Positions 22,460-35,124 of a stretch of 64,000 nucleotides of DNA are shown piece by piece. Positions within the stretch are counted from its first letter, which is position 1, and the number at the start of each line of letters is the position of its first letter. Under the pieces are notes generated by a model, which saw nothing but the letters and a program-made list of their open reading frames with translations, had not been told where the DNA came from and did not search any database. This DNA is from Pseudonocardia sp. C8 (lineage in GTDB: Bacteria > Actinomycetota > Actinomycetes > Mycobacteriales > Pseudonocardiaceae), in assembly GCF_014267175.1 (NCBI RefSeq), contig NZ_JACMTR010000002.1:2097001-2161000 (forward strand), in the 5' to 3' direction. A program made the translations under genes and the position numbers.

Positions 22460-24019
22460 TCAGCCGGTCGTCGTCCTGCCCGGCCCGTAGTGGCGTGGCG
22501 TGAAGACGACCGGCTCGCCGCTCCGCTCCACGACCCGGGTGGTCGACGACCCGACGATCACCAGCGTGCGCATGTCGACCAGCTCCGGATCCAGCGCGCC
22601 GAGCGTGGTGACGGTGACCCGCTGACCGGGGCCGCCGACGTCGCGGCCCAGCACGACCGGCGTGTCCGGGGAACGGTGCTCCAGCAGCACGTCGCGGGCC
22701 GCACCCACCTGCCACGGCCGGGCCTTCGACCGCGGGTTGTAGATCGCGATCGCGAGGTCGGCGGACGCGGCCGCCCGCAGCCGGCCGGCGACGACGTCCC
22801 AGGGCTTCAGCCGGTCGGACAGCGAGATCATCGCGTGGTCGTGACCCAGCGGGGCGCCGACCGCGGCGGCGACCGCCTGGGCCGCGGACAGCCCGGGCAG
22901 CACCCGTACCGGCACGTCGCGGTACTTCGGCCCGGCCGCCACCTCCAGCACGGCGGCGGCCATCGCGAAGATCCCCGGGTCACCGGCCGAGACGACCGCG
23001 ACCCGCCGCCCGGACGCGGCCAGGTCCAGCGCGTGCGCCGCCCGCTCGGCCTCCACCCGGTTGTCCGACGGGTGCCGGGCCTGGCGCGGGTTCGCCGGCA
23101 CCCGGTCCAGGTACGGGCCGTACCCGACGAGGTCGTCGGCCTCGGCCAGCGCCGCGGCGACCTGCGGGGTCAGCCAGTCCCGCCCGGCCGGACCGGTCCC
23201 GACCACGACCACCTCGCCCGGCCCCGGGGCGGGGGCCGGGCCGGCCCCGTCCGGGACGGAGGCGGCGACCTCGCCGGGGACCAGCGCGACCGCGAAGTAC
23301 GGGACCTCGCCCGGGTCCACGCCGGCCAGCTCGCCGGTGCGCTGGTCGGCCGTCGTGGCCCGCTCGACGTAGCGGGCCCGGTCCAGCTTGCCGGCGTCGG
23401 CGAGGGCGTCGCGGACGGTGCCGAACGTCCGGCCCAGCTTGAGCACGGCGGCCGCGTCGGTGCCGGCGAGCCGGCGGGCCAGCTCGTCGCGGGGGAGCGT
23501 GCCGGGCAGCACGGTGAGCACCTCGTCGCGCTCCACGAGGGGCTGCCGGAGCGCGGCCGCGGCCCCGCTGACCGACGTGACCCCCGGGACGACCTCGGTG
23601 CGGTAGCGCCCCGCGAGCCGCTTGTGCATGTGCATGTAGGAGCCGTAGAAGAGCGGGTCGCCCTCGGCGAGCAGGACGACGTCCCGGCCCGCGTCCAGGT
23701 GCGCGGCGAGCCGGGCGGCCGCCTCGGCGTAGAACTCGTCGATCGCGCCCTGGTAGCCACCCGGATGATCGGTGACCTCGGTGGTGACCGGGTAGACCAG
23801 CGCCTCCTCGATCGCGGTGCCGGACAGGTGCGGCTCGGCGATCCGGCGGGCGATCGAGCGGCCGTGCCGGGCGGAGTGGTAGGCGACGACGTCGGCGTCG
23901 CGGATCAGCCGGGCCGCCTTGATCGTGGTCAGCTCGGGGTCGCCGGGGCCGAGCCCGACGCCGTACAGGGTGCCGGTGCCGTCCGGCCCCTCCGCCGGAG
24001 GTCGTACGTCGGGGCTCAC
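22460..24019 (-). CDS. cobIJ: Fused precorrin-2 C20- / precorrin-3B C17-methyltransferase
   Basis: A bifunctional 519-aa enzyme of aerobic cobalamin synthesis. The CobI half (about 1-250) begins L-Y-G-V-G-L-G-P-G-D-P-E-L-T-T-I-K-A and has L-A-E-G-D-P-L-F-Y-G-S. The CobJ half (about 265-519) has V-V-V-G-T-G-P-A-G, V-G-Y-G-P-Y, S-A-G-D-P-G-I-F-A-M and A-I-Y-N-P-R-S-K-A-R. Both SAM-binding G-D-P loops are intact. Fusion of these two steps is common in actinobacteria. The GTG start at 24019 overlaps the cobH stop (GTGA), continuing the chain cobG-cobH-cobIJ in which every junction overlaps by four bases. Confidence 0.95.
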   Translation of the reverse strand: MSPDVRPPAEGPDGTGTLYGVGLGPGDPELTTIKAARLIRDADVVAYHSARHGRSIARRIAEPHLSGTAIEEALVYPVTTEVTDHPGGYQGAIDEFYAEAAARLAAHLDAGRDVVLLAEGDPLFYGSYMHMHKRLAGRYRTEVVPGVTSVSGAAAALRQPLVERDEVLTVLPGTLPRDELARRLAGTDAAAVLKLGRTFGTVRDALADAGKLDRARYVERATTADQRTGELAGVDPGEVPYFAVALVPGEVAASVPDGAGPAPAPGPGEVVVVGTGPAGRDWLTPQVAAALAEADDLVGYGPYLDRVPANPRQARHPSDNRVEAERAAHALDLAASGRRVAVVSAGDPGIFAMAAAVLEVAAGPKYRDVPVRVLPGLSAAQAVAAAVGAPLGHDHAMISLSDRLKPWDVVAGRLRAAASADLAIAIYNPRSKARPWQVGAARDVLLEHRSPDTPVVLGRDVGGPGQRVTVTTLGALDPELVDMRTLVIVGSSTTRVVERSGEPVVFTPRHYGPGRTTTG

Positions 24020-24654
24020 GCGAGGATCTCCTGTTCGTGGGCCAGCGCGTTGAGCGCGGCCGCGGTGATCGCCGACCCGCCGCGCCGGCCGTGGACGACG
24101 AGGTGCTCCAGGTCGGTGCGCGCGGCGAGGGCCTGCTTGGACTCGACGGCCCCGACGAACCCGACCGGGATGCCGAGGACCGCCGCCGGCCGCGGCGCGC
24201 CTCGGTCGAGGAGGTCGAGCACGTGGAACAGCGCGGTCGGGGCGTTCCCGATCGCGATCACCGCGCCGTCGAACCGGTCCGCGAGCAGGTCGAGCGCGGC
24301 CGCCGAGCGGGTGTTGCCGATCGCGCGGGCGTGCTCCGGGACGCGCGGGTCGCGCAGCAGGCAGACCACGTCGTTGCCGGCGGGCAGGCGGGCCGCGGTG
24401 ACCCCGGACGCGACCATCATCGCGTCGCACAGGATCGGTGCGCCCGCCTTCAGCGCCCGGCGGGCGTTCTCGACGACGTGCGCGGAGGCCGCGATGTCGG
24501 CGGTGAGGTCGACCTGGCCGCAGGCGTGGATCATGCGGACGGCGACGTCGGCCATCCCGGGCGGCAGCCCGGACAGGTCCGCCTCGGCGCGGATCGTGGC
24601 GAACGAGCGCCGGTAGATCTCGGCACCGTCGGTGATGTAGTCGTGGCCGCTCAG
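24016..24654 (-). CDS. cobH: Precorrin-8X methylmutase, apparent CTG start
   Basis: Moves the C11 methyl group to C12, making hydrogenobyrinate; cytosolic. Homology starts at H-D-Y-I-T-D-G-A-E-I-Y-R-R-S-F-A-T-I-R and runs through M-I-H-A-C-G-Q-V-D and G-V-T-A-A-R-L to the C-terminal helix, about 212 aa, the normal CobH length. No ATG, GTG or TTG lies in frame just upstream of the conserved start. The only well-placed candidate is a CTG at 24654: GAGGAG stands six bases before it and it overlaps the cobG stop (CTGA), matching the 4-nt overlap at the cobH-cobIJ junction. The first downstream ATG would delete about 35 conserved residues. Confidence 0.88.
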   Translation of the reverse strand: MSGHDYITDGAEIYRRSFATIRAEADLSGLPPGMADVAVRMIHACGQVDLTADIAASAHVVENARRALKAGAPILCDAMMVASGVTAARLPAGNDVVCLLRDPRVPEHARAIGNTRSAAALDLLADRFDGAVIAIGNAPTALFHVLDLLDRGAPRPAAVLGIPVGFVGAVESKQALAARTDLEHLVVHGRRGGSAITAAALNALAHEQEILA

Positions 24655-26036
24655 CGGGAACTCCTCGGTCGGTCCTGCGGGGACGGGGGCGCGCCGCGAT
24701 GCGGTGTCGGATCGGGCGGTGTCGGGTCGCGCAGCGGGGTCGCGGACGGTCGCCCTGCGCCGGCTGGAGCGGCCGCCACCTGGTGCAGCGGGCCGGACGG
24801 GCCGTCGCCGTCGATCTCGTAGGCCTGCGGCCCGGTGGCGACGGCGTCGGCGTGCAGGGTGTGCGGGGCCCCGCAGCGGCGGGAACACCCCGCCACGTGC
24901 ACCGGTCGGGCGGGTGCCAGCCGGATCAGCTCGCGGGCGTCGGCCCGGACGTCGGCCAGCGACCGGGCGCACCCCGGCCTCCCGGCGCAGGCGCTCACCC
25001 GCAGTGCCGGGTGGTCCGGGTCCACGACCAGCCCGGCCGCGCGCAGCCGGTCGGCCGCGTCCCCGGCCGGGGCGGGCAGTACGAGGGAGCGCCACGGGGT
25101 GACCAGCAGCTCCGGCGCGAGGCCGGCGAGCAGCTCCAGCTGGGCCGCGGACACCTCGCCGAGCACCGGAGCGGCGCCGAGCGCCCGGTCGCCGAGGGGG
25201 CCGACGGGTGGTCCGGCGGTCTCCCGATCGGAAAGCCGCCCGGCGGGACGGTGCGGCCCCGGCGCCCGGGCGGCGTGGTCGCCCGGGACCGGTGGGGCGT
25301 CGGGTGGCTCGGCCGGCGACGGCCGGGGCGGCGTACCGGCGCCGGGCGCGGCCCTCCCGCCCAGGGCCGCGGCGATGCGCGCCGGCGCGCCGGGCAGCTC
25401 GGCGGCCCGCCAGGCCCGGGCGGCCGGGTCGCCGGCGTGCGCGGCCCGCAGGTCCAGGAACGCGGCCGCGGCGTCCACCAGCAGCGCCGGGGCGGACCCC
25501 GGGGTGCAGCGCAGGCCGGTGGCGCTCCCGGCGACGTGCAGCTCGCCGTCGTCCGGGGCGCTCGCCCGCCAGCACAGGTCGGGACGCTCGCCGGCGACGT
25601 CGCCGCGGCCGTCGTCGAGGGCGACCAGGAACCGGCCGGGCAGCGCCGCGAGCTCCGGGCGGGCACACAGACCGCGGTCGACGGCGGCGGCGAGCCCGCG
25701 GACGTCGGCGAGCCCGCCGCGGATCCCGGACAGCGGCGAGGCCAGGACGTTCCGGACCCGCTCGTGGGTGAACGACGGCAGCAGCCCCGCCTCGGCGAGC
25801 CGCCGCACCGGGCGCGGGTCGGCCGGGTCGAGGCCGCGCAGCTGCAGGTTCCCGCGGGAGGTGAGGTGGACGGTGCCGTCGCCGGCGTCGGCCGCGAGCC
25901 GGGCGACCGCGCGCAGCGCCGGCGCGGTGATCACGCCGCCGGGCAGCCGGATCCGGGCCAGCGCACCGTCCGCCGCGAGGTGCGGCGACACGACGCCCGG
26001 GCAGGCGTCGGCGCGGGTACGGGCGGTCGTCGGCAC
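24651..26036 (-). CDS. cobG: Precorrin-3B synthase
   Basis: Oxygen-dependent monooxygenase of the aerobic cobalamin route, related to siroheme sulfite/nitrite reductases. The 461-aa protein has two ferredoxin-like halves (first: V-H-L-T-S-R-G-N-L-Q-L-R-G-L) separated by a Pro/Gly-rich linker, and the [4Fe-4S] ligands in S-A-C-A-G-R-P-G-C and V-A-G-C-S-R-R-C-G (C-x5-C and C-x3-C). CobG implies an aerobic pathway. The C-terminal 45 residues are low-complexity. The GTG at 26036 has TACAGT six bases upstream, so this is probably the leaderless first gene of cobG-cobH-cobIJ; no B12 riboswitch precedes it. Confidence 0.9.
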   Translation of the reverse strand: MPTTARTRADACPGVVSPHLAADGALARIRLPGGVITAPALRAVARLAADAGDGTVHLTSRGNLQLRGLDPADPRPVRRLAEAGLLPSFTHERVRNVLASPLSGIRGGLADVRGLAAAVDRGLCARPELAALPGRFLVALDDGRGDVAGERPDLCWRASAPDDGELHVAGSATGLRCTPGSAPALLVDAAAAFLDLRAAHAGDPAARAWRAAELPGAPARIAAALGGRAAPGAGTPPRPSPAEPPDAPPVPGDHAARAPGPHRPAGRLSDRETAGPPVGPLGDRALGAAPVLGEVSAAQLELLAGLAPELLVTPWRSLVLPAPAGDAADRLRAAGLVVDPDHPALRVSACAGRPGCARSLADVRADARELIRLAPARPVHVAGCSRRCGAPHTLHADAVATGPQAYEIDGDGPSGPLHQVAAAPAGAGRPSATPLRDPTPPDPTPHRGAPPSPQDRPRSSR

Positions 26037-26115: not shown

Positions 26116-26913
26116 TCAGGCCGGCCGCTCACCCACGGCCGCGCTGAGCCGGCGCGCCGCCTTCCGCACCGCGGCGGCCCGGACGTCGCCCTCCGGGCCG
26201 GTGAAGTCCTCGCTGCGGCCACCCAGGCTGATCGTGGCCTCGAGCGCGCGGTCCCGGCCGAGCACCGGTGCCGCGACCGCGGACACGCCCCGGAGGAAGT
26301 CGTCCCGGCTGACGGCGACACCGGCGGCTCTGACCTCGTCGAGATGTGCGGCGAACGCGACGGGGTCGACATACGTCGTTTCGGTGAAGGCGGCGAGACC
26401 GGCGGCGAGCACGCGTTCCCGGATCGCCTGATCGAAGGCCGTCATCACCACCGGAGCCGCCGCCGCGTGGTACGGGAGCACCGACCCGATCCCGATACCG
26501 GCGACCACCAGCGGTTTCCCGCCCTCGACCCGGTCGATGCAGACTGCGCCGGCATCCGACGGGACCATCAAGAACGCTGTGTCGCCGAACCGTGCCGCGA
26601 GGTCCTCGAGTGCTGGGCGCGCCTCGGTCCGCAGATCGAACTCCGCCAGCGCCGCCGCGCCGACGGCGAAGACCGGCATCCGGATCCGGTACGCGCCGGC
26701 AGGGTCCCGGTGCACCCATCCGGCCTCGACGAACGAGGTCATGAGCCGGTGCACGGTCGGCTTGTTGAGCCCGCTCGCGGCCGTCAGCTCGGCCAGCGTG
26801 ATCACCGGCCGATGGGCGCCGAACTGTTCGAGCAGCCTGCACGCCCGCAGGACCGAACCCACGGTCTCCCGGCTCGTCGCGTCACCGCCCTCGACGGGGG
26901 ACGCACCGCCCAC
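26116..26913 (-). CDS. IclR-family transcriptional regulator
   Basis: A 265-aa regulator divergent from the lyase/dehydratase operon. The N-terminal winged helix reads R-A-C-R-L-L-E-Q-F then T-L-A-E-L-T-A-A-S-G-L-N-K-P-T-V-H-R-L-M, and the C-terminal IclR effector domain has V-C-I-D-R-V-E-G and G-S-V-L-P-Y-H-A-A-A-A-P with a final D-F-L-R-G-V-S-A-V-A-A-P-V. The GTG at 26913 fits GAGGGAG at six bases better than the GTG at 26919. TAATCT at 26950-26945 is a good -10 box for it. Its likely operator is the palindrome at 27014-27030; the effector is probably the carboxylate used by the operon. Confidence 0.9.
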   Translation of the reverse strand: MGGASPVEGGDATSRETVGSVLRACRLLEQFGAHRPVITLAELTAASGLNKPTVHRLMTSFVEAGWVHRDPAGAYRIRMPVFAVGAAALAEFDLRTEARPALEDLAARFGDTAFLMVPSDAGAVCIDRVEGGKPLVVAGIGIGSVLPYHAAAAPVVMTAFDQAIRERVLAAGLAAFTETTYVDPVAFAAHLDEVRAAGVAVSRDDFLRGVSAVAAPVLGRDRALEATISLGGRSEDFTGPEGDVRAAAVRKAARRLSAAVGERPA

Positions 26914-27013
26914 GGTCACCTCCCTCGTCGCCTCGTCCTGCGCCAGATTATCGACCGGTTCGCGCCGGTGCCTTGACAGAGCGCCATCCGCCCGGCCACA
27001 TTTCTCGGAACGC

Positions 27014-27030
27014 GTATCGCATGACGATAC
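27014..27030. promoter_or_regulatory. Palindromic operator, probable IclR site
   Basis: GTATCG-CATGA-CGATAC is a perfect 6-bp inverted repeat with a 5-nt centre. It ends one base before the Shine-Dalgarno AGGGAGG (27031-27037, abutting) of the lyase gene, and about 35 bp after TTGACA (26973-26978), so a bound protein would sit at the transcription start region. Confidence 0.6.
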
Positions 27031-27043
27031 AGGGAGGCGTGCA

Positions 27044-27898
27044 GTGGAACTACGCGAGATGATCTCCAGGGGCCTCGTCCGTGCCCCCGGCGTGTGGGAC
27101 GGTCTGACCGCACGGCTGGCCGAGCAGGCAGGCTTCGGAGCGCTGTGCGCATCCGGCTTCGCGATCTCGGCATCGCTGGGCTACCCGGACGCCGAGCTCT
27201 ACACGATGTCGGAAAACCTGCAGGCCGTCCGGACCGTGCGGGAAGCCAGCGCGCTGCCGCTGATCGCCGACATCGACACCGGATACGGCAACGCCGTCAA
27301 CGCGGCCCGGACGGCTCGCCGGTTCGCTGACGCCGGGGTGGCGGCGGTCTTCATGGAGGACCAGCGCTCGCCCAAGCGTTGCCCGTTGATCCCGGGCGCC
27401 GAGGTCGAGCTCGTCGACACCGCCGAGGCCGAGGGCAAGGTCCGGGCGGTGAAGGACGCGGCCGGTGACATGATCGTCATCGCACGCACCGACGCGAGGG
27501 GCGACGAGGCGCTGCGCCGGGCAGAGGCGTACGTGCGGGCCGGTGCCGACATGATCATGCCGGTGACGAGGACGTTCTCCACCGTCGAGGAGTGGGCCCG
27601 TTGCCGGGAGGTCGCCGGCGTGCCACTGACCGCGACCCTGACTGCGTCGGCGTGGACCGAGCGGGAGTTCACCACCGATGTCATGGATGAGGTCGGTGTC
27701 CGGCTCGCCCTGCTGCCGACGCAGGTTCTGATGGCGGTCACCGGGGCCGCGCAGCACTGCCTGCGGCGCCTGGCCGCGGGCGAGCCGCCGGCGTCGGTGA
27801 GCGCGGACGGCCTGGGACACCACGACTTCATCGGACTGATCGGGATGGACGAGATCGAGCGCCAGCAGCACGCCTACCTGCCCGCGGCGGTGGTGTGA
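27044..27898 (+). CDS. Isocitrate lyase/PEP mutase-family C-C lyase (methylisocitrate or dimethylmalate lyase-like)
   Basis: A 284-aa TIM-barrel enzyme splitting a 2-hydroxy-acid to pyruvate (or a 2-oxoacid) plus a smaller acid. Family marks: A-P-G-V-W-D-G-L-T-A-R-L, I-A-D-I-D-T-G-Y-G-N-A (metal Asp pair), F-M-E-D-Q-R-S-P-K-R-C (the K-R-C-G-H-type catalytic loop, here K-R-C-P-L) and I-A-R-T-D-A-R. The Cys is kept but the loop lacks the canonical G-H, so it is not a standard isocitrate or 2-methylisocitrate lyase. It is coupled to aconitase-like subunits, the arrangement used for dimethylmaleate hydratase plus 2,3-dimethylmalate lyase in anaerobic nicotinate breakdown. GTG 27044 has AGGGAGG six bases upstream. 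Confidence 0.82.
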   Translation: MELREMISRGLVRAPGVWDGLTARLAEQAGFGALCASGFAISASLGYPDAELYTMSENLQAVRTVREASALPLIADIDTGYGNAVNAARTARRFADAGVAAVFMEDQRSPKRCPLIPGAEVELVDTAEAEGKVRAVKDAAGDMIVIARTDARGDEALRRAEAYVRAGADMIMPVTRTFSTVEEWARCREVAGVPLTATLTASAWTEREFTTDVMDEVGVRLALLPTQVLMAVTGAAQHCLRRLAAGEPPASVSADGLGHHDFIGLIGMDEIERQQHAYLPAAVV

Positions 27899-29163
27899 CC
27901 GTGGGCGGCACGATCGCCGAGAAGATCCTCGCCCGAGCGGCGGGCGTCGCGTCCGTGCGGGCCGGGGAGAACCTCCCGGTCCGGCCCGACTACATGATCG
28001 CCTACGACTTCCCCGGCTACACCGACGTCATGTTCCGGCAGATGCACGACGAATTCGGTATCCGCGAGCTCGCCGAGCGGGACCGCTACGTGGTGTTCAT
28101 CGACCACATGCTGACCCGTGGTGATGAGCGGGAGCAGGAGGTCCATCAGGTCACCCGTGACTGGTGCGAGTACTACGGGATCGCGCTGCACGAGGCCCGG
28201 GGGATCGGACACCAGGTGATGGCCGAGCTCGGATATGCGCAGCCCGGCAACTTCCTCATCCATTTCGACGGGCACATCTCCGGTGCGGGGGCGTTCGGTG
28301 CACTCGGCTGGGGCGTTCGGCGGGACCTGCTCGAGGCCTGGGTGTCCGGTCGGATCTTCCTCGACGTCCCGGCGACCACCCGGTTCGAACTGGCCGGGGA
28401 GTTCCGGCCCGGCGTGGACAGTCGCGACCTGGTGCACCGCATCATCTCCGACCTCGGCGCCGACGGCTGCGCGCACCAGGTGATGGAGTTCGGCGGACCC
28501 GGTGCCCGGGCGATGTCGATCGATCACCGGCAGGGCTTGTGCGGGATGGCGATGTTCACCGGCGCGGTATCCGCGGTCTTCGAACCGGACGAGGCCGCTC
28601 TGGAGCACGCGCACCGGGTCGGGGGTGGAGGGTTCACGCCGCAGTCGCCGGACCACGACGCCGGGTACCACGCCGTCCATCACTACGATCTCGCGACGAT
28701 CGTGCCGCAGGTGGTGCTGCCCGGGTCGGCCCGTTCAGCACACACCCGTGACGCCGCCGAGCTCGGTGGCACGGCGGTGACCAAGGCGTTCATCGGGTCT
28801 TGTGCATCGGGCCGGATCGAGGACATCCGCGCGGCCGCCCGTGTCCTGCGCGGCCGGTCGGTGGCACCGGGGGTCGAGCTGAACGTGGTCCCGACCTCGG
28901 AGGCGGTGCACCGCCAGGCGGAGGAGGAGGGGCTGCTCGAGGTGCTCCGCGAGGCCGGCGCGCAGATCGCCCGGTCGAGCTGTGACTTCTGCTTCGGGTA
29001 CCAGAAGCCGCTCCAGCCGGAGGAGAACTGCATCTCCACCGGCGTGCTGAACATCTCCGGCCGGATGGGCAGCACCGCCGCCAACATCTACATGGGATCC
29101 GCGTCGACGGTCGCAGCCAGCGCCGTGGCGGGGAGCATCTCCGCAGCCGAGGAGGTCCGGTGA
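27895..29163 (+). CDS. Aconitase/isopropylmalate dehydratase-like large subunit
   Basis: A 422-aa [4Fe-4S] hydro-lyase subunit of the LeuC/HacA/DmdA class. It begins G-T-I-A-E-K-I-L-A-R-A-A-G and carries the cluster ligands C303 in G-S-C-A-S-G-R-I-E-D and C363/C366 in S-C-D-F-C, with N-I-S-G-R-M-G-S near the end. The pattern C-x2-C with a variant loop (D-F in place of the usual small residues) suggests a divergent substrate. The GTG at 27895 overlaps the lyase stop, and its own stop overlaps the small subunit start. Together with the next gene it should hydrate or isomerise an unsaturated dicarboxylate feeding the lyase. True leucine synthesis is unlikely in this context. Confidence 0.87.
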   Translation: MTVGGTIAEKILARAAGVASVRAGENLPVRPDYMIAYDFPGYTDVMFRQMHDEFGIRELAERDRYVVFIDHMLTRGDEREQEVHQVTRDWCEYYGIALHEARGIGHQVMAELGYAQPGNFLIHFDGHISGAGAFGALGWGVRRDLLEAWVSGRIFLDVPATTRFELAGEFRPGVDSRDLVHRIISDLGADGCAHQVMEFGGPGARAMSIDHRQGLCGMAMFTGAVSAVFEPDEAALEHAHRVGGGGFTPQSPDHDAGYHAVHHYDLATIVPQVVLPGSARSAHTRDAAELGGTAVTKAFIGSCASGRIEDIRAAARVLRGRSVAPGVELNVVPTSEAVHRQAEEEGLLEVLREAGAQIARSSCDFCFGYQKPLQPEENCISTGVLNISGRMGSTAANIYMGSASTVAASAVAGSISAAEEVR

Positions 29164-29690
29164 GCGCCAGCCGTGACTACCCGCCACCGGCCGATGTGAT
29201 CAGCGGGCGGGTGGCGTGGGTGTTCGGTGACGACTTCGACATCGACCTGGTGATCGGTGTCGAGAACATCAAGTCCTACGAAGCCGAGTTCCTCCGCAGC
29301 AAGGTCATGCAGGACTACGACCCGACCTTCGCCGACCGGGTACGGCCCGGTGACGTGATCGTGGGGGGCCGGAACTTCGGCTACGGTCACCCGCACTACC
29401 CCCCGATGGTCGCCCTGCGCGACCTCGGCATCGCCGCGGTCCTCGCCGAGTCCTTCTCGCCGGGGTTCTGGCGCGGCGAAACCTACAACGGGATGCCGCT
29501 GGTCACCGTCCCGGGGATCGCCTCCGCCGTGGCCGTGGGCGACGCCGTGCATCTCGACTGGCGGGCGGCCGCGGTCACGCTGCCCGGCGGCCGGGAGCTG
29601 CGAGGCACTCCGCCGAGCGCGCGGGTGATCCGCGTGATCGAGGCGGGGGGGTCGCTGAACCTGCTGCTCGCGGAGCACGCCCGGACCTGA
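29160..29690 (+). CDS. Aconitase/isopropylmalate dehydratase-like small subunit
   Basis: A 176-aa swivel-domain subunit (LeuD/HacB/DmdB class). The start G-R-V-A-W-V-F-G-D-D-F-D-I-D-L and the K-V-M-Q-D-Y-D-P-T-F segment match the family. The substrate-recognition loop, normally G-x-N-F-G-C-G-S-S-R-E-H-A, is N-F-G-Y-G-H-P-H-Y-P-P (Tyr75, His77, His79), replacing the Ser and Arg that bind the substrate carboxylate. This argues for a substrate other than isopropylmalate or homoisocitrate. The GTG start overlaps the large-subunit stop by 4 nt, so equal synthesis of the two chains is expected. Confidence 0.85.
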   Translation: MSASRDYPPPADVISGRVAWVFGDDFDIDLVIGVENIKSYEAEFLRSKVMQDYDPTFADRVRPGDVIVGGRNFGYGHPHYPPMVALRDLGIAAVLAESFSPGFWRGETYNGMPLVTVPGIASAVAVGDAVHLDWRAAAVTLPGGRELRGTPPSARVIRVIEAGGSLNLLLAEHART

Positions 29691-29703
29691 CCCCGGGCCC
29701 ACC

Positions 29704-29756
29704 ACCACGCCGGCCCACGCCGGCCCATGCCGGTCCATGCCGATCAACGCTGATCA
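29704..29756 (+). repeat. 10-bp imperfect tandem repeat before the MFS gene
   Basis: About five units with period 10 related to CCCACGCCGG, degrading stepwise to CCATGCCGAT and CAACGCTGAT. The array lies in the 75-bp gap between the small-subunit stop and the transporter ribosome site. One unit per helical turn would present the same DNA face five times. Confidence 0.7.
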
Positions 29757-29765
29757 GGAGCTCAC

Positions 29766-31085
29766 GTGTCCGAGACGACCTCCGCGCCCGGTGCCACGGC
29801 GGCACCGCCACACTCCGTCCTGTCCGCCCGCCGGGCCGCGCTCGCCGGCGGGGTGGGAACGCTGATCGAGTACTACGACTTCAGCGTCTACGCCTTCCTC
29901 GCCGTCACCCTCGGGCCGCTGTTCTTCCCCAGCGACGAACCCGGCGTCTCGATCCTGCTCACCCTGGCCGTCTTCGGGTCGGCCTACGTCATGCGGCCGC
30001 TCGGAGGCTGGTTCTTCGGCCGCCTCGGTGACCGGCGCGGCCGCAAGCACGCCCTGGTCGTCACCGTGGTCACGATGGGGGCGTTCTCCGGGTTGCTGGG
30101 CCTCCTGCCGGACTTCGCGACGGCCGGGATGCTGGCGCCGATCCTGCTCGTCCTGGTCCGGCTCGCCCAGGGCTTCTCCGCAGGCGGTGAGATCGGTGGT
30201 GCTGCCACCTACGTCGCCGAGTCGGCGCCGCCCGGTAGGCGAGGCCTCTACGGTTCGCTCACCCCGGTCGGGTCGACCCTCGGCTTCGCGGTGGCCGCGG
30301 CGGTGGTCGGGCTGGTGACGGCGGTGACGACGCCCGAGCAGATGTCCGCGTGGGGCTGGCGGGTTCCGTTCCTGATCGCCGTCCCGCTGGCCCTGATCTG
30401 CCTGTGGGTCCGCGTGAAGCTCGAGGACACCGCCGAGTTCGAAGCCATGGCCGAGCGCCGCGAGGTCGTTCGCAGCCCGCTGCTGAACGTGCTCCGGGAG
30501 CGCCCCGGGGCGGTGCTGCGCGTCGTCGGGATCGCGATCGCCATGAACGGCACCGGGTACGTCGGGCTCACCTACTTCAGCACCTACCTGATCCAGACCC
30601 AGGGGTTCGGCAAGCAGGCCGTCTACTGGGCGTCGGCGATCGGGATCGCGCTCGCGTGTGCCACGTACCCGCTCGCAGGCATGCTCACCGACCGGTTCGG
30701 GCGCCGGCCGGTGCTGCTCGCCGCCTACGTGCTCTACCTGGCGCTGGCCTGGCCGGTGTTCGCACTGCTCGGTGCCACGTCGAGCATCGTCGTGGTCACG
30801 GTCACCTACGTCGTCTACATGGCGGTGAACGGCTTGGCGCAGGTTCCGGCGTTCCCACAGTTCACCGAGCTGTTCCCGCGGCGGATCCGCTACACCGGCG
30901 TCGCGCTCGGCTTCAACGTCGGCACGATCCTGGCCGGTGGCTCTGCGCCCTACGTCGCCGCGCAGCTCGTGCAGAGCACCGGGAACCCGATGTCGCCGGC
31001 GTTCTGGGTGCTGGGGGTCGCGCTGGTCGGCATCGTCACCGTCCTGTCCATGCGGGAGACCGGCCGGGACCGCCTCCCGGTGTAG
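29766..31085 (+). CDS. MFS transporter, metabolite:H+ symporter (MHS) type
   Basis: A 439-aa inner-membrane carrier with twelve hydrophobic segments. The opening G-T-L-I-E-Y-Y-D-F-S-V-Y, V-M-R-P-L-G-G-W-F-F-G-R-L-G-D-R-R-G-R-K and R-L-A-Q-G-F-S-A-G-G-E-I-G-G-A mark the MHS subfamily of citrate, alpha-ketoglutarate, shikimate and proline/betaine symporters. It closes the IclR-controlled operon and presumably imports the carboxylate substrate handled by the lyase and dehydratase. The GTG at 29766 lies eight bases after the ribosome site AGGAG. Confidence 0.87.
   Translation: MSETTSAPGATAAPPHSVLSARRAALAGGVGTLIEYYDFSVYAFLAVTLGPLFFPSDEPGVSILLTLAVFGSAYVMRPLGGWFFGRLGDRRGRKHALVVTVVTMGAFSGLLGLLPDFATAGMLAPILLVLVRLAQGFSAGGEIGGAATYVAESAPPGRRGLYGSLTPVGSTLGFAVAAAVVGLVTAVTTPEQMSAWGWRVPFLIAVPLALICLWVRVKLEDTAEFEAMAERREVVRSPLLNVLRERPGAVLRVVGIAIAMNGTGYVGLTYFSTYLIQTQGFGKQAVYWASAIGIALACATYPLAGMLTDRFGRRPVLLAAYVLYLALAWPVFALLGATSSIVVVTVTYVVYMAVNGLAQVPAFPQFTELFPRRIRYTGVALGFNVGTILAGGSAPYVAAQLVQSTGNPMSPAFWVLGVALVGIVTVLSMRETGRDRLPV

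Positions 31086-31497: not shown

Positions 31498-31501
<4 letters not shown>
31469..31501 (+). CDS. Ten-codon leader peptide ORF overlapping cobN
   Basis: ATG at 31469 starts a 10-residue frame (MTRARTGEVR) whose stop TGA overlaps the cobN GTG (GTGA). The best ribosome site in the leader, GAGGAAGG, is eight bases before this ATG; the cobN start itself has only GGTGAAG. The riboswitch could therefore act on the leader ORF and control cobN through coupling. No homologue is known to me. Confidence 0.45.

Positions 31502-35124
<3,623 letters not shown>

Follow-up and report, generated by a model that had tools for sequence, protein, structure and literature searches.

Hydration of an unsaturated acid and cleavage of the 2-hydroxy acid formed follow one another in two known routes: 2-methyl-cis-aconitate is converted to methylisocitrate and then to pyruvate and succinate, and dimethylmaleate to dimethylmalate and then to pyruvate and propionate. 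In the latter route, part of nicotinate fermentation, the hydratase DmdAB and 2,3-dimethylmalate lyase presumably form the same pairing as the one considered here, that is, a LeuCD-type hydratase with a lyase of the isocitrate lyase (ICL) fold. Here we describe an operon at positions 26116..31085 of a 64,000-nucleotide stretch of Pseudonocardia sp. C8 (hereafter the window; contig NZ_JACMTR010000002.1, positions 2,097,001 to 2,161,000, in a genome of 2 contigs and 6.24 Mb). It encodes an IclR-family regulator, a lyase of the ICL/phosphoenolpyruvate mutase (PEPM) superfamily, LeuC-like and LeuD-like hydratase subunits and a putative metabolite/H+ symporter of the MHS type. As far as sequence comparison can tell, both enzymes of this family have kept their catalytic residues while their substrate pockets have been replaced, with one catalytic exception, a serine of the hydratase that has become histidine. 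The five genes and the loops KRCPL and NFGYGHPH, on which the original prediction for this locus was built, are confirmed by the open reading frames (ORFs) and the sequence.

The active site of the aconitase superfamily is highly conserved. PMC8184944 reports that the known subfamilies outside AcnX have over 15 of 20 aconitase active-site residues in common, and the AcnX enzymes (cis-3-hydroxyproline dehydratase and mevalonate-5-phosphate dehydratase) provide a precedent for re-made pockets. According to the same paper, a serine (Ser70) occupies the base position of AcnX type I, and its cluster ligands are different ones; the window proteins, in contrast, retain the ligands and have the serine replaced. 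The roles of the equivalents of Ser642, Cys358, Cys421, Cys424, Asp165, His147 and His167 are also taken from PMC8184944. An AcnX identity was rejected: the Pfam AcnX model matches at 25.8 of 31.5 bits and within 306-375 only, the canonical aconitase cysteines are present instead, and the fold agrees with AcnX at a template modelling score (TM) of 0.54-0.55.

The large subunit of the window (27895..29163, plus strand; Aconitase PF00330, 237.6 bits) carries the cluster cysteines C303, C363 and C366. In the LeuD/DmdB-like small subunit (29160..29690, plus strand; TIGR02087, 104.3 bits against a cut-off of 108.95; Pfam Aconitase_C, 20.2 bits, under the cut-off of 22.8), the active-site loop N72-F-G-Y-G-H77-P78-H79-Y80 (29373..29399, plus strand), reading GRNFGYGHPHYPP, replaces N-F-G-x-G-S-S-R-E. 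The family was aligned with LeuC, LeuD and PrpB of E. coli and named sites were counted, in 77 family rows against 25 controls for the large subunit (the 24 nearest relatives outside the family and the host's own LeuC) and in 73 rows against 26 controls for the small subunit (25 relatives and the own LeuD). A one-chain aconitase-like protein (L002), L004 (the same gene as L003) and an aconitase (L005) were left out of the hydratase controls, and L108 yielded no large subunit. The sites of both subunits are given in aconitase numbering.

The equivalents of D100, H101, H147, D165, H167, C358, C421, C424 and R452 are invariant in 77/77 family rows and 25/25 controls, so that the three cysteine ligands of the [4Fe-4S] cluster, characteristic of the superfamily, are present throughout the family. 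The other characteristic residue, the catalytic Ser642 of the swivel-domain GSS loop, is absent: the position is histidine in 73/73 family rows and serine in 26/26 controls. The two following positions have changed as well, S643 to proline (73/73; controls serine in 25 and glycine in 1) and R644 to histidine (73/73; controls arginine in 19 and threonine in 7), as have, in the large subunit, S166 to glycine, E262 to phenylalanine and R447 to leucine, each in 77/77 rows (controls S 25/25; E 24 and D 1; R 25/25). The equivalents of N258, N446 and D568 differ or vary among the controls as well. Judged from these alignments, the family is a clade of the aconitase superfamily with histidine at the catalytic-serine position. 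A database search with the small subunit gave 1153 relatives at E 1e-3 out of 1963 candidates, and the loop GRNFGYGHPHYP occurs in 120/120 of the homologues listed; together with the 73/73 family rows this excludes a chance loop or a sequencing error, and the loop differences noticed originally are real and clade-wide. Another type of loop was seen at L106, L107, L108, L119, L120, L121 and L124, where a LeuD-like GSSTPAHYS keeps the serines and has R644 replaced by threonine, possibly marking another re-specified branch.

By sequence, the best Protein Data Bank (PDB) matches of the two subunits are archaeal-type LeuCD proteins (4nqy and 4kp1 for the large subunit, 3vba for the small one), which share with them the two-subunit architecture, the three cluster cysteines and the Asp/His network of the iron site; the three PDB relatives of the small subunit are all archaeal-type LeuD/HacB small subunits. 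For the large subunit the same holds by fold: its AlphaFold model (mean predicted local distance difference test, pLDDT, 87.6; predicted TM, pTM, 0.89; 16 sequences) agrees best with the large subunit of isopropylmalate (IPM) isomerase 4kp1 (TM 0.90), IPM isomerase and homoaconitase large subunits giving 0.87-0.90 (homoaconitase 0.88) and aconitase 0.85-0.87. The window proteins differ from LeuCD in S642H, S643P, R644H, S166G, E262F and R447L and belong to a separate clade. In a tree of 26 of the 77 large-subunit rows, with long branches and weak deep joins, the family forms one clade (100/100, stem 1.3) apart from the LeuC of E. coli and of the host, grouping weakly (43/80) near the canonical lyase and LeuCD modules described below. 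LeuCD family scores remain under their cut-offs (TIGR00170, 168.8 of 560.25; TIGR02083, 260.8 of 610.65; TIGR02084, 72.7 of 245.85), and because every listed NCBIfam score lies below its curated cut-off, we refer to the window proteins as relatives, not members, of the named families. A role in leucine biosynthesis was likewise rejected, since the cut-offs are not reached and the genome has its own LeuC elsewhere (G000:C2:4380287-4381516, 62.7% to E. coli LeuC).

The partner lyase (27044..27898, plus strand; PEP_mutase PF13714, 147.5 bits) represents a subtype with the catalytic loop K111-R-C113-P114-L115 (PKRCPLIPG; 27374..27388, plus strand). It shares with PrpB of E. coli (1mum) the fold (TM 0.84), the Mg-binding and catalytic residues and the loop cysteine. 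The equivalents of D58, D85, D87, E115, K121, C123 and R158 are conserved in 77/77 family rows and 20/20 controls, and thus the Asp/Glu magnesium site, the loop Lys-x-Cys and Arg158 that define the ICL/PEPM superfamily are found at each site. In contrast to PrpB and to all 20 controls, the family has proline at G124 (77/77), isoleucine (41), leucine (16), alanine (11), valine (8) or cysteine (1) at H125, lysine (65), arginine (11) or proline (1) at E188, and threonine (61), glutamine (11), serine (4) or alanine (1) at N210. The controls are the 20 nearest of 29 found, and 20/20 refers to this nearest set: L142, L145, L146, L147, L151, L152, L153, L154 and L155 were dropped as distant or partial, among them L151 with the loop KRPVY, which has no loop cysteine, L153 with RRCGH and L142 with CNSF. 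In a tree of 26 of the 77 rows the lyases form one clade (99/100) separate from PrpB.

The C2-C3 cleavage core is described in PMC7609661 as D108 (D58 in methylisocitrate lyase), C191 (C123 in methylisocitrate lyase) and R228, with C191 as the catalytic acid. Since these residues are kept, C2-C3 cleavage should remain within reach of the window lyase. Its AlphaFold model (pLDDT 85, pTM 0.82, 17 sequences) matches methylisocitrate lyases, PEP mutases and their relatives about equally (TM 0.80-0.88 among the 50 PDB folds listed), and the fold matches of the lyase and large-subunit models leave the substrate range unnarrowed. The PDB entry named 2,3-dimethylmalate lyase, 3fa3, scores 94 bits with the window lyase; the likeness to DmdAB is drawn from the enzyme pairing, and, unlike that pairing, many loci of the present family carry ligases and varied uptake genes.

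An indication that the two enzymes changed together comes from seven related lyase and LeuCD modules, operons different from that of the window (L160-L163, in other genomes of the same genus, and L101, L112 and L118, in genomes of the Burkholderiales-type taxonomic order), in which every counted site is canonical in all three proteins, the small subunit having SSR and the lyase KxCGH in all seven. In seven window-type modules compared alongside, the corresponding positions are swapped in all three proteins. In the canonical modules L161 (L161:6998-9687) and L163 (L163:5518-8862), regulator, lyase, large and small subunit follow one another as in the window. Because canonical modules exist, the pairing of a lyase with LeuCD is a general device, and the window type a branch with recognition changed in both partners. 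Next to the other two canonical modules of the genus (L160:4332-10725 and L162:4576-10963) lie an isochorismatase-family hydrolase, a luciferase-like monooxygenase and a MatC-type dicarboxylate carrier, assigned by family search for L160 and by likeness of gene order and sequence starts for L162. A further arrangement, at L165:6154-9722, has two tandem LeuCD-like pairs beside a creatinase/prolidase-N-type gene and an ornithine-cyclodeaminase-like gene.

We take R447 and R644 of the hydratase and H125, E188 and N210 of the lyase to be contacts of the substrate carboxylates in the known relatives. Their replacements, with those at the other pocket positions, are partly hydrophobic (F, L, P and I) and partly re-charged (lysine or arginine at 188, histidine at 642 and 644). 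Since the carboxylate-site residues are rebuilt in both enzymes, the group on the beta side of the substrate is presumably not a normally placed carboxylate; the acid probably has a hydrophobic or differently charged group there and would not be a simple malate or maleate homologue. The original view that the subunits are not true LeuCD and the lyase is not an ordinary methylisocitrate lyase agrees well with the separate clades, the missed family cut-offs and the changed pocket residues.

The module is widespread. Of the 107 loci detected by scanning species genomes with small-subunit patterns, the 80 best were retained; the named loci matching the window best belong to Saccharopolyspora and Pseudonocardia. 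One scan pattern contains part of the loop, and the presence of the loop is therefore conditioned in the 80 loci; it is unconditioned in the database-homologue set and in the order and class searches, and the large-subunit and lyase sites are unconditioned throughout. Several loci come from close strains, so that row counts demonstrate fixation in a clade rather than independent events. Genes were called with a codon-usage script (the large subunits of L032 and L069 were placed by tblastn), and neighbours were counted as tblastn matches no more than 8 kb away from the small subunit. The gene set with the YGHPH loop, which the original prediction had proposed to look for in other genomes, was recovered with a large subunit in 80/80 loci, a lyase in 79/80 and an IclR-type gene in 74/80. 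These counts include the lyase of L026 (38% of its length) and the large subunit of L084 (82%), both cut by contig ends. At L040, the sole locus without a lyase, the contig starts 70 bases before the large subunit and the lyase would be off-contig. Because the lyase lies near the hydratase genes in 79/80 loci, the gene set is not a product of chance. The order is lyase, large and small subunit in 68 loci and large subunit, small subunit and lyase in 11, which are the 11 proteobacterial loci; in all, the module is present in Actinobacteria, Betaproteobacteria and Alphaproteobacteria.

The taxonomic order to which L078 belongs was represented by 399 genomes, that of L078 among them; five have the small subunit, at 277-303 bits, and the next relative at E <= 1e-25 scores 124 bits; the loop was readable in 24 of 25 such relatives fetched (L103 missed the pattern), all of GS type and none with HPH. 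Among 385 alphaproteobacterial genomes, the class of L083 and including it, 6 carry the lyase subtype (E <= 1e-75) and 8 the hydratase small subunit (E <= 1e-45), with 9/9 lyase places beside a hydratase place at a distance of about 15 bases to 4.9 kb. Ten further distant loci, one of them the refetched L085 contig, have GYGHPH in 10/10 and keep the family residues of the large subunit in 10/10 and of the lyase in 8/8, two being without a lyase. At L189:8420-10227 and L190:7922-9699, an HPH-type hydratase with the loop HPHF, not HPHY, was observed with no window-type lyase called nearby.

In the window, the lyase and large-subunit genes overlap by 4 bp, as do the two subunit genes; the overlapping order claimed originally thus holds for these three and fails for the MHS-type transporter of the major facilitator superfamily (29766..31085, plus strand), which starts 75 bp 3' of the small subunit without overlap. 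The transporter aligns with nearly the whole TIGR00883 model at a score under the cut-off (395.8 bits, cut-off 443.45). The divergent IclR-family regulator (26116..26919, minus strand) has the domains IclR_C (PF01614, 89.2 bits) and HTH_IclR (PF09339, 54.7 bits), its best NCBIfam matches being PcaR/PcaU (105.2 bits) and BhcR (101.9 bits), both far under cut-off. Between regulator and operon lies a candidate palindromic operator, GTATCG-N5-CGATAC (27014..27030), an exact inverted repeat. With up to two mismatches allowed it has a single match in the window, which is the chance level (1.05 expected), and that match is exact. The palindrome of the original prediction recurs in related loci: in 54 divergent gaps between IclR gene and operon (window included), counted irrespective of the relatedness of the loci, 12/12 arm bases are found in 9 and at least 10 in 26, where base shuffles of the same gaps give about 0.2 gaps with at least 10. 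The best matches in the 8 proteobacterial gaps reach 7 or 8 arm bases, none having 10 or more, and most Rhodococcus gaps reach 8 or 9; the palindrome therefore appears to be the site of a subset of Actinobacteria.

The core of the module is constant, and uptake and upstream genes vary among lineages, which suggests a single intermediate that is supplied to it in different ways by different organisms. An MHS transporter lies within 8 kb of the small subunit in 58/80 loci, a permease of the HAAT (hydrophobic amino acid uptake) type of ATP-binding cassette transporter in 9/80 and a Bug-type binding protein in 9/80; two loci have both of the latter, and in 6/80 all three are absent. Within the stretches covered, AMP-forming acyl-CoA ligases of at least three subgroups (<45% identity) occur in 37/81 loci, some of them possibly unlinked; in several Nocardia loci the ligase gene overlaps the transporter gene by 4 bp. 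A flavoprotein resembling 3-ketosteroid dehydrogenase (KSTD) is present in 10/81 loci, with scores far under cut-off for 3-ketosteroid dehydrogenase (287.5 of 789 bits) and 4-oxocyclohexanecarboxylate dehydrogenase (211 of 1000). Ohr-type peroxiredoxins were found in 6 loci, PF04199-type proteins in 3 and tandem alpha/beta hydrolases in 6. Genes for a lactonase-like protein of the metallo-beta-lactamase type (59-78 of 360 bits) and a GlcD-like flavoprotein, also far under cut-off, immediately precede the module in Zhengella (L083), Variovorax SRS16 and Azospirillum lipoferum 4B. Convergent with the module at L187:2115-8390 are a pair of caprolactamase-like HyuA (575.5 of 1000 bits) and HyuB and a Rieske oxygenase.

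These data can be read, with about even confidence, as an inducible catabolic cassette in which regulated import is followed by a hydratase and a C-C lyase acting in sequence on an acid. The IclR regulator and the palindrome would control the operon for the proton symporter and the two enzymes. The two-subunit iron-sulfur hydratase would hydrate the double bond of an unsaturated acid, giving a 2-hydroxy acid, with H77 of the small subunit most likely taking the place of the catalytic serine as base; the Mg-dependent lyase would then cut C2-C3 to release pyruvate or glyoxylate as the 2-oxo acid, together with a second fragment, which in some lineages may be activated by the acyl-CoA ligase encoded nearby. 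Hydration followed by C2-C3 cleavage is the simplest mechanism, because the cluster site and the catalytic residues of the lyase are intact, and the order of hydratase and then lyase is likely; we infer this order, the histidine base and the products. More tentatively, and with somewhat less than even confidence, we propose that the clade is a functionally new branch of the aconitase superfamily, its histidine having supplanted the serine base retained by the characterised branches, AcnX type I among them, with a co-adapted lyase of the ICL fold and an acid lacking the usual second carboxylate, two unrelated folds having changed their recognition together.

Several observations weigh against the reading as a catabolic cassette. 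The histidine is assigned as base from its position only, and with lysine or arginine at E188 in 76/77 lyases a carboxylate could still be bound through another residue. The KSTD-like flavoprotein also matches tricarballylate dehydrogenase, a polycarboxylate enzyme (101.2 of 369 bits). Both the flavoprotein and the linked ligase are missing from the window operon; the flavoprotein has no real match in the own genome (best 20.8 bits), and the genome's relative of the ligase, at 62%, lies far from the operon (locus L170), with no obvious operon partner by eye among its unannotated neighbours. Finally, two of the eight alphaproteobacterial hydratase genomes, G751 and G829, contain ordinary lyase relatives only (best 161-163 bits); the hydratase and the lyase are thus not inseparable, with the proviso that these assemblies may be incomplete.

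Of the alternatives, the alkyl-substituted maleate or fumarate of the original prediction fares best, and we regard it as possible but rather unlikely. After its import such an acid would take up water to form an alkylmalate, which the lyase would split into a short acid and pyruvate or another 2-oxo acid, the dicarboxylate being held by new residues, namely lysine or arginine at 188 of the lyase and the new histidines of the hydratase. The pairing would then mirror dimethylmaleate hydratase and dimethylmalate lyase, the positive residues at E188 would find a purpose, MHS, HAAT and Bug transporters would suit hydrophobic or dicarboxylic acids, and the ligases would suggest an acid product. However, IPM isomerase-type enzymes presumably act on alkyl-malates with the canonical serine and arginines, which 7/7 canonical modules keep, and no feature of the module identifies such a substrate. 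A plain alkyl-maleate alone would not explain the replaced catalytic serine. Thus import, hydration and cleavage are supported, and the substrate class is conjectural. Several of the residues replaced in both enzymes hold substrate carboxylates in the known relatives.

More doubtful is a 4-oxo-2-enoic acid, or one activated by a ketone or amide group, whose carbonyl would stabilise the carbanion in both steps, the lyase acting as a retro-aldolase that releases the ketone-bearing fragment. This would account for the same loss of presumed carboxylate contacts; the flavoprotein scores best with 3-ketosteroid dehydrogenase models, and such enzymes desaturate next to a ketone. Some operons are also bordered by genes for lactonase-like proteins, PF04199 cyclase-like proteins and alpha/beta hydrolases. 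Yet these hints are indirect, the flavoprotein occurs in few lineages and has the tricarballylate dehydrogenase similarity mentioned above, the lactonase-like proteins are far under cut-off, and the linked ligase better fits an acid product.

It is still less probable that the aconitase-like pair catalyses another reaction, such as isomerisation or decarboxylation, or has a sensing or carrier role. The uniform histidine would be consistent with this, for even AcnX type I has a counterpart of the serine base (Ser70; PMC8184944), but the cluster ligands and the iron-site network are invariant, and in nearly all loci the pair is accompanied by a lyase of the type that cleaves 2-hydroxy acids. The idea that the window lyase is the host's PrpB, a methylisocitrate lyase working with the hydratase on propionate, is very improbable: the own genome has four MmgE/PrpD homologues, and the window lyase is its sole lyase of the ICL/PEPM type at E 1e-10, but G124 and H125 of the KxCGH loop, E188 and N210 are replaced in 77/77 lyases, TIGR02317 reaches 189.6 of 354.4 bits, the clade lies apart from PrpB, and PrpC and PrpD of E. 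coli are unmatched in the 80 related loci (tblastn, E 1e-8).

No isocitrate lyase was found in the own genome, the sole PF00463 match being the window lyase itself (26.1 bits). Around the operon, a cobalamin riboswitch (RF00174; 31335-31411, plus strand; 37.4 bits, cut-off 31.5) lies just before the large ORF 31498-35124, which by eye is cobN-like, and the operon is situated between this ORF and genes that look cob-like by eye (minus strand, about 22460-26036). In the open-access literature, no paper on the module was found by title or the start of the abstract, nor any with the loop letters as the query.

The names carried by the source records for this clade, "3-isopropylmalate dehydratase", "methylisocitrate lyase" and "oxaloacetate decarboxylase", are unsafe. 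The clade-wide swap of the serine base and pocket, in step with the lyase, is of more interest than the alkyl-malate guess from which the analysis started. A multi-phylum clade in which the serine and the pocket are uniformly replaced and the cluster site is untouched amounts to a natural experiment on the change of chemistry in the aconitase superfamily, and the partner lyase, with its parallel pocket change, offers a two-enzyme handle for finding the substrate.

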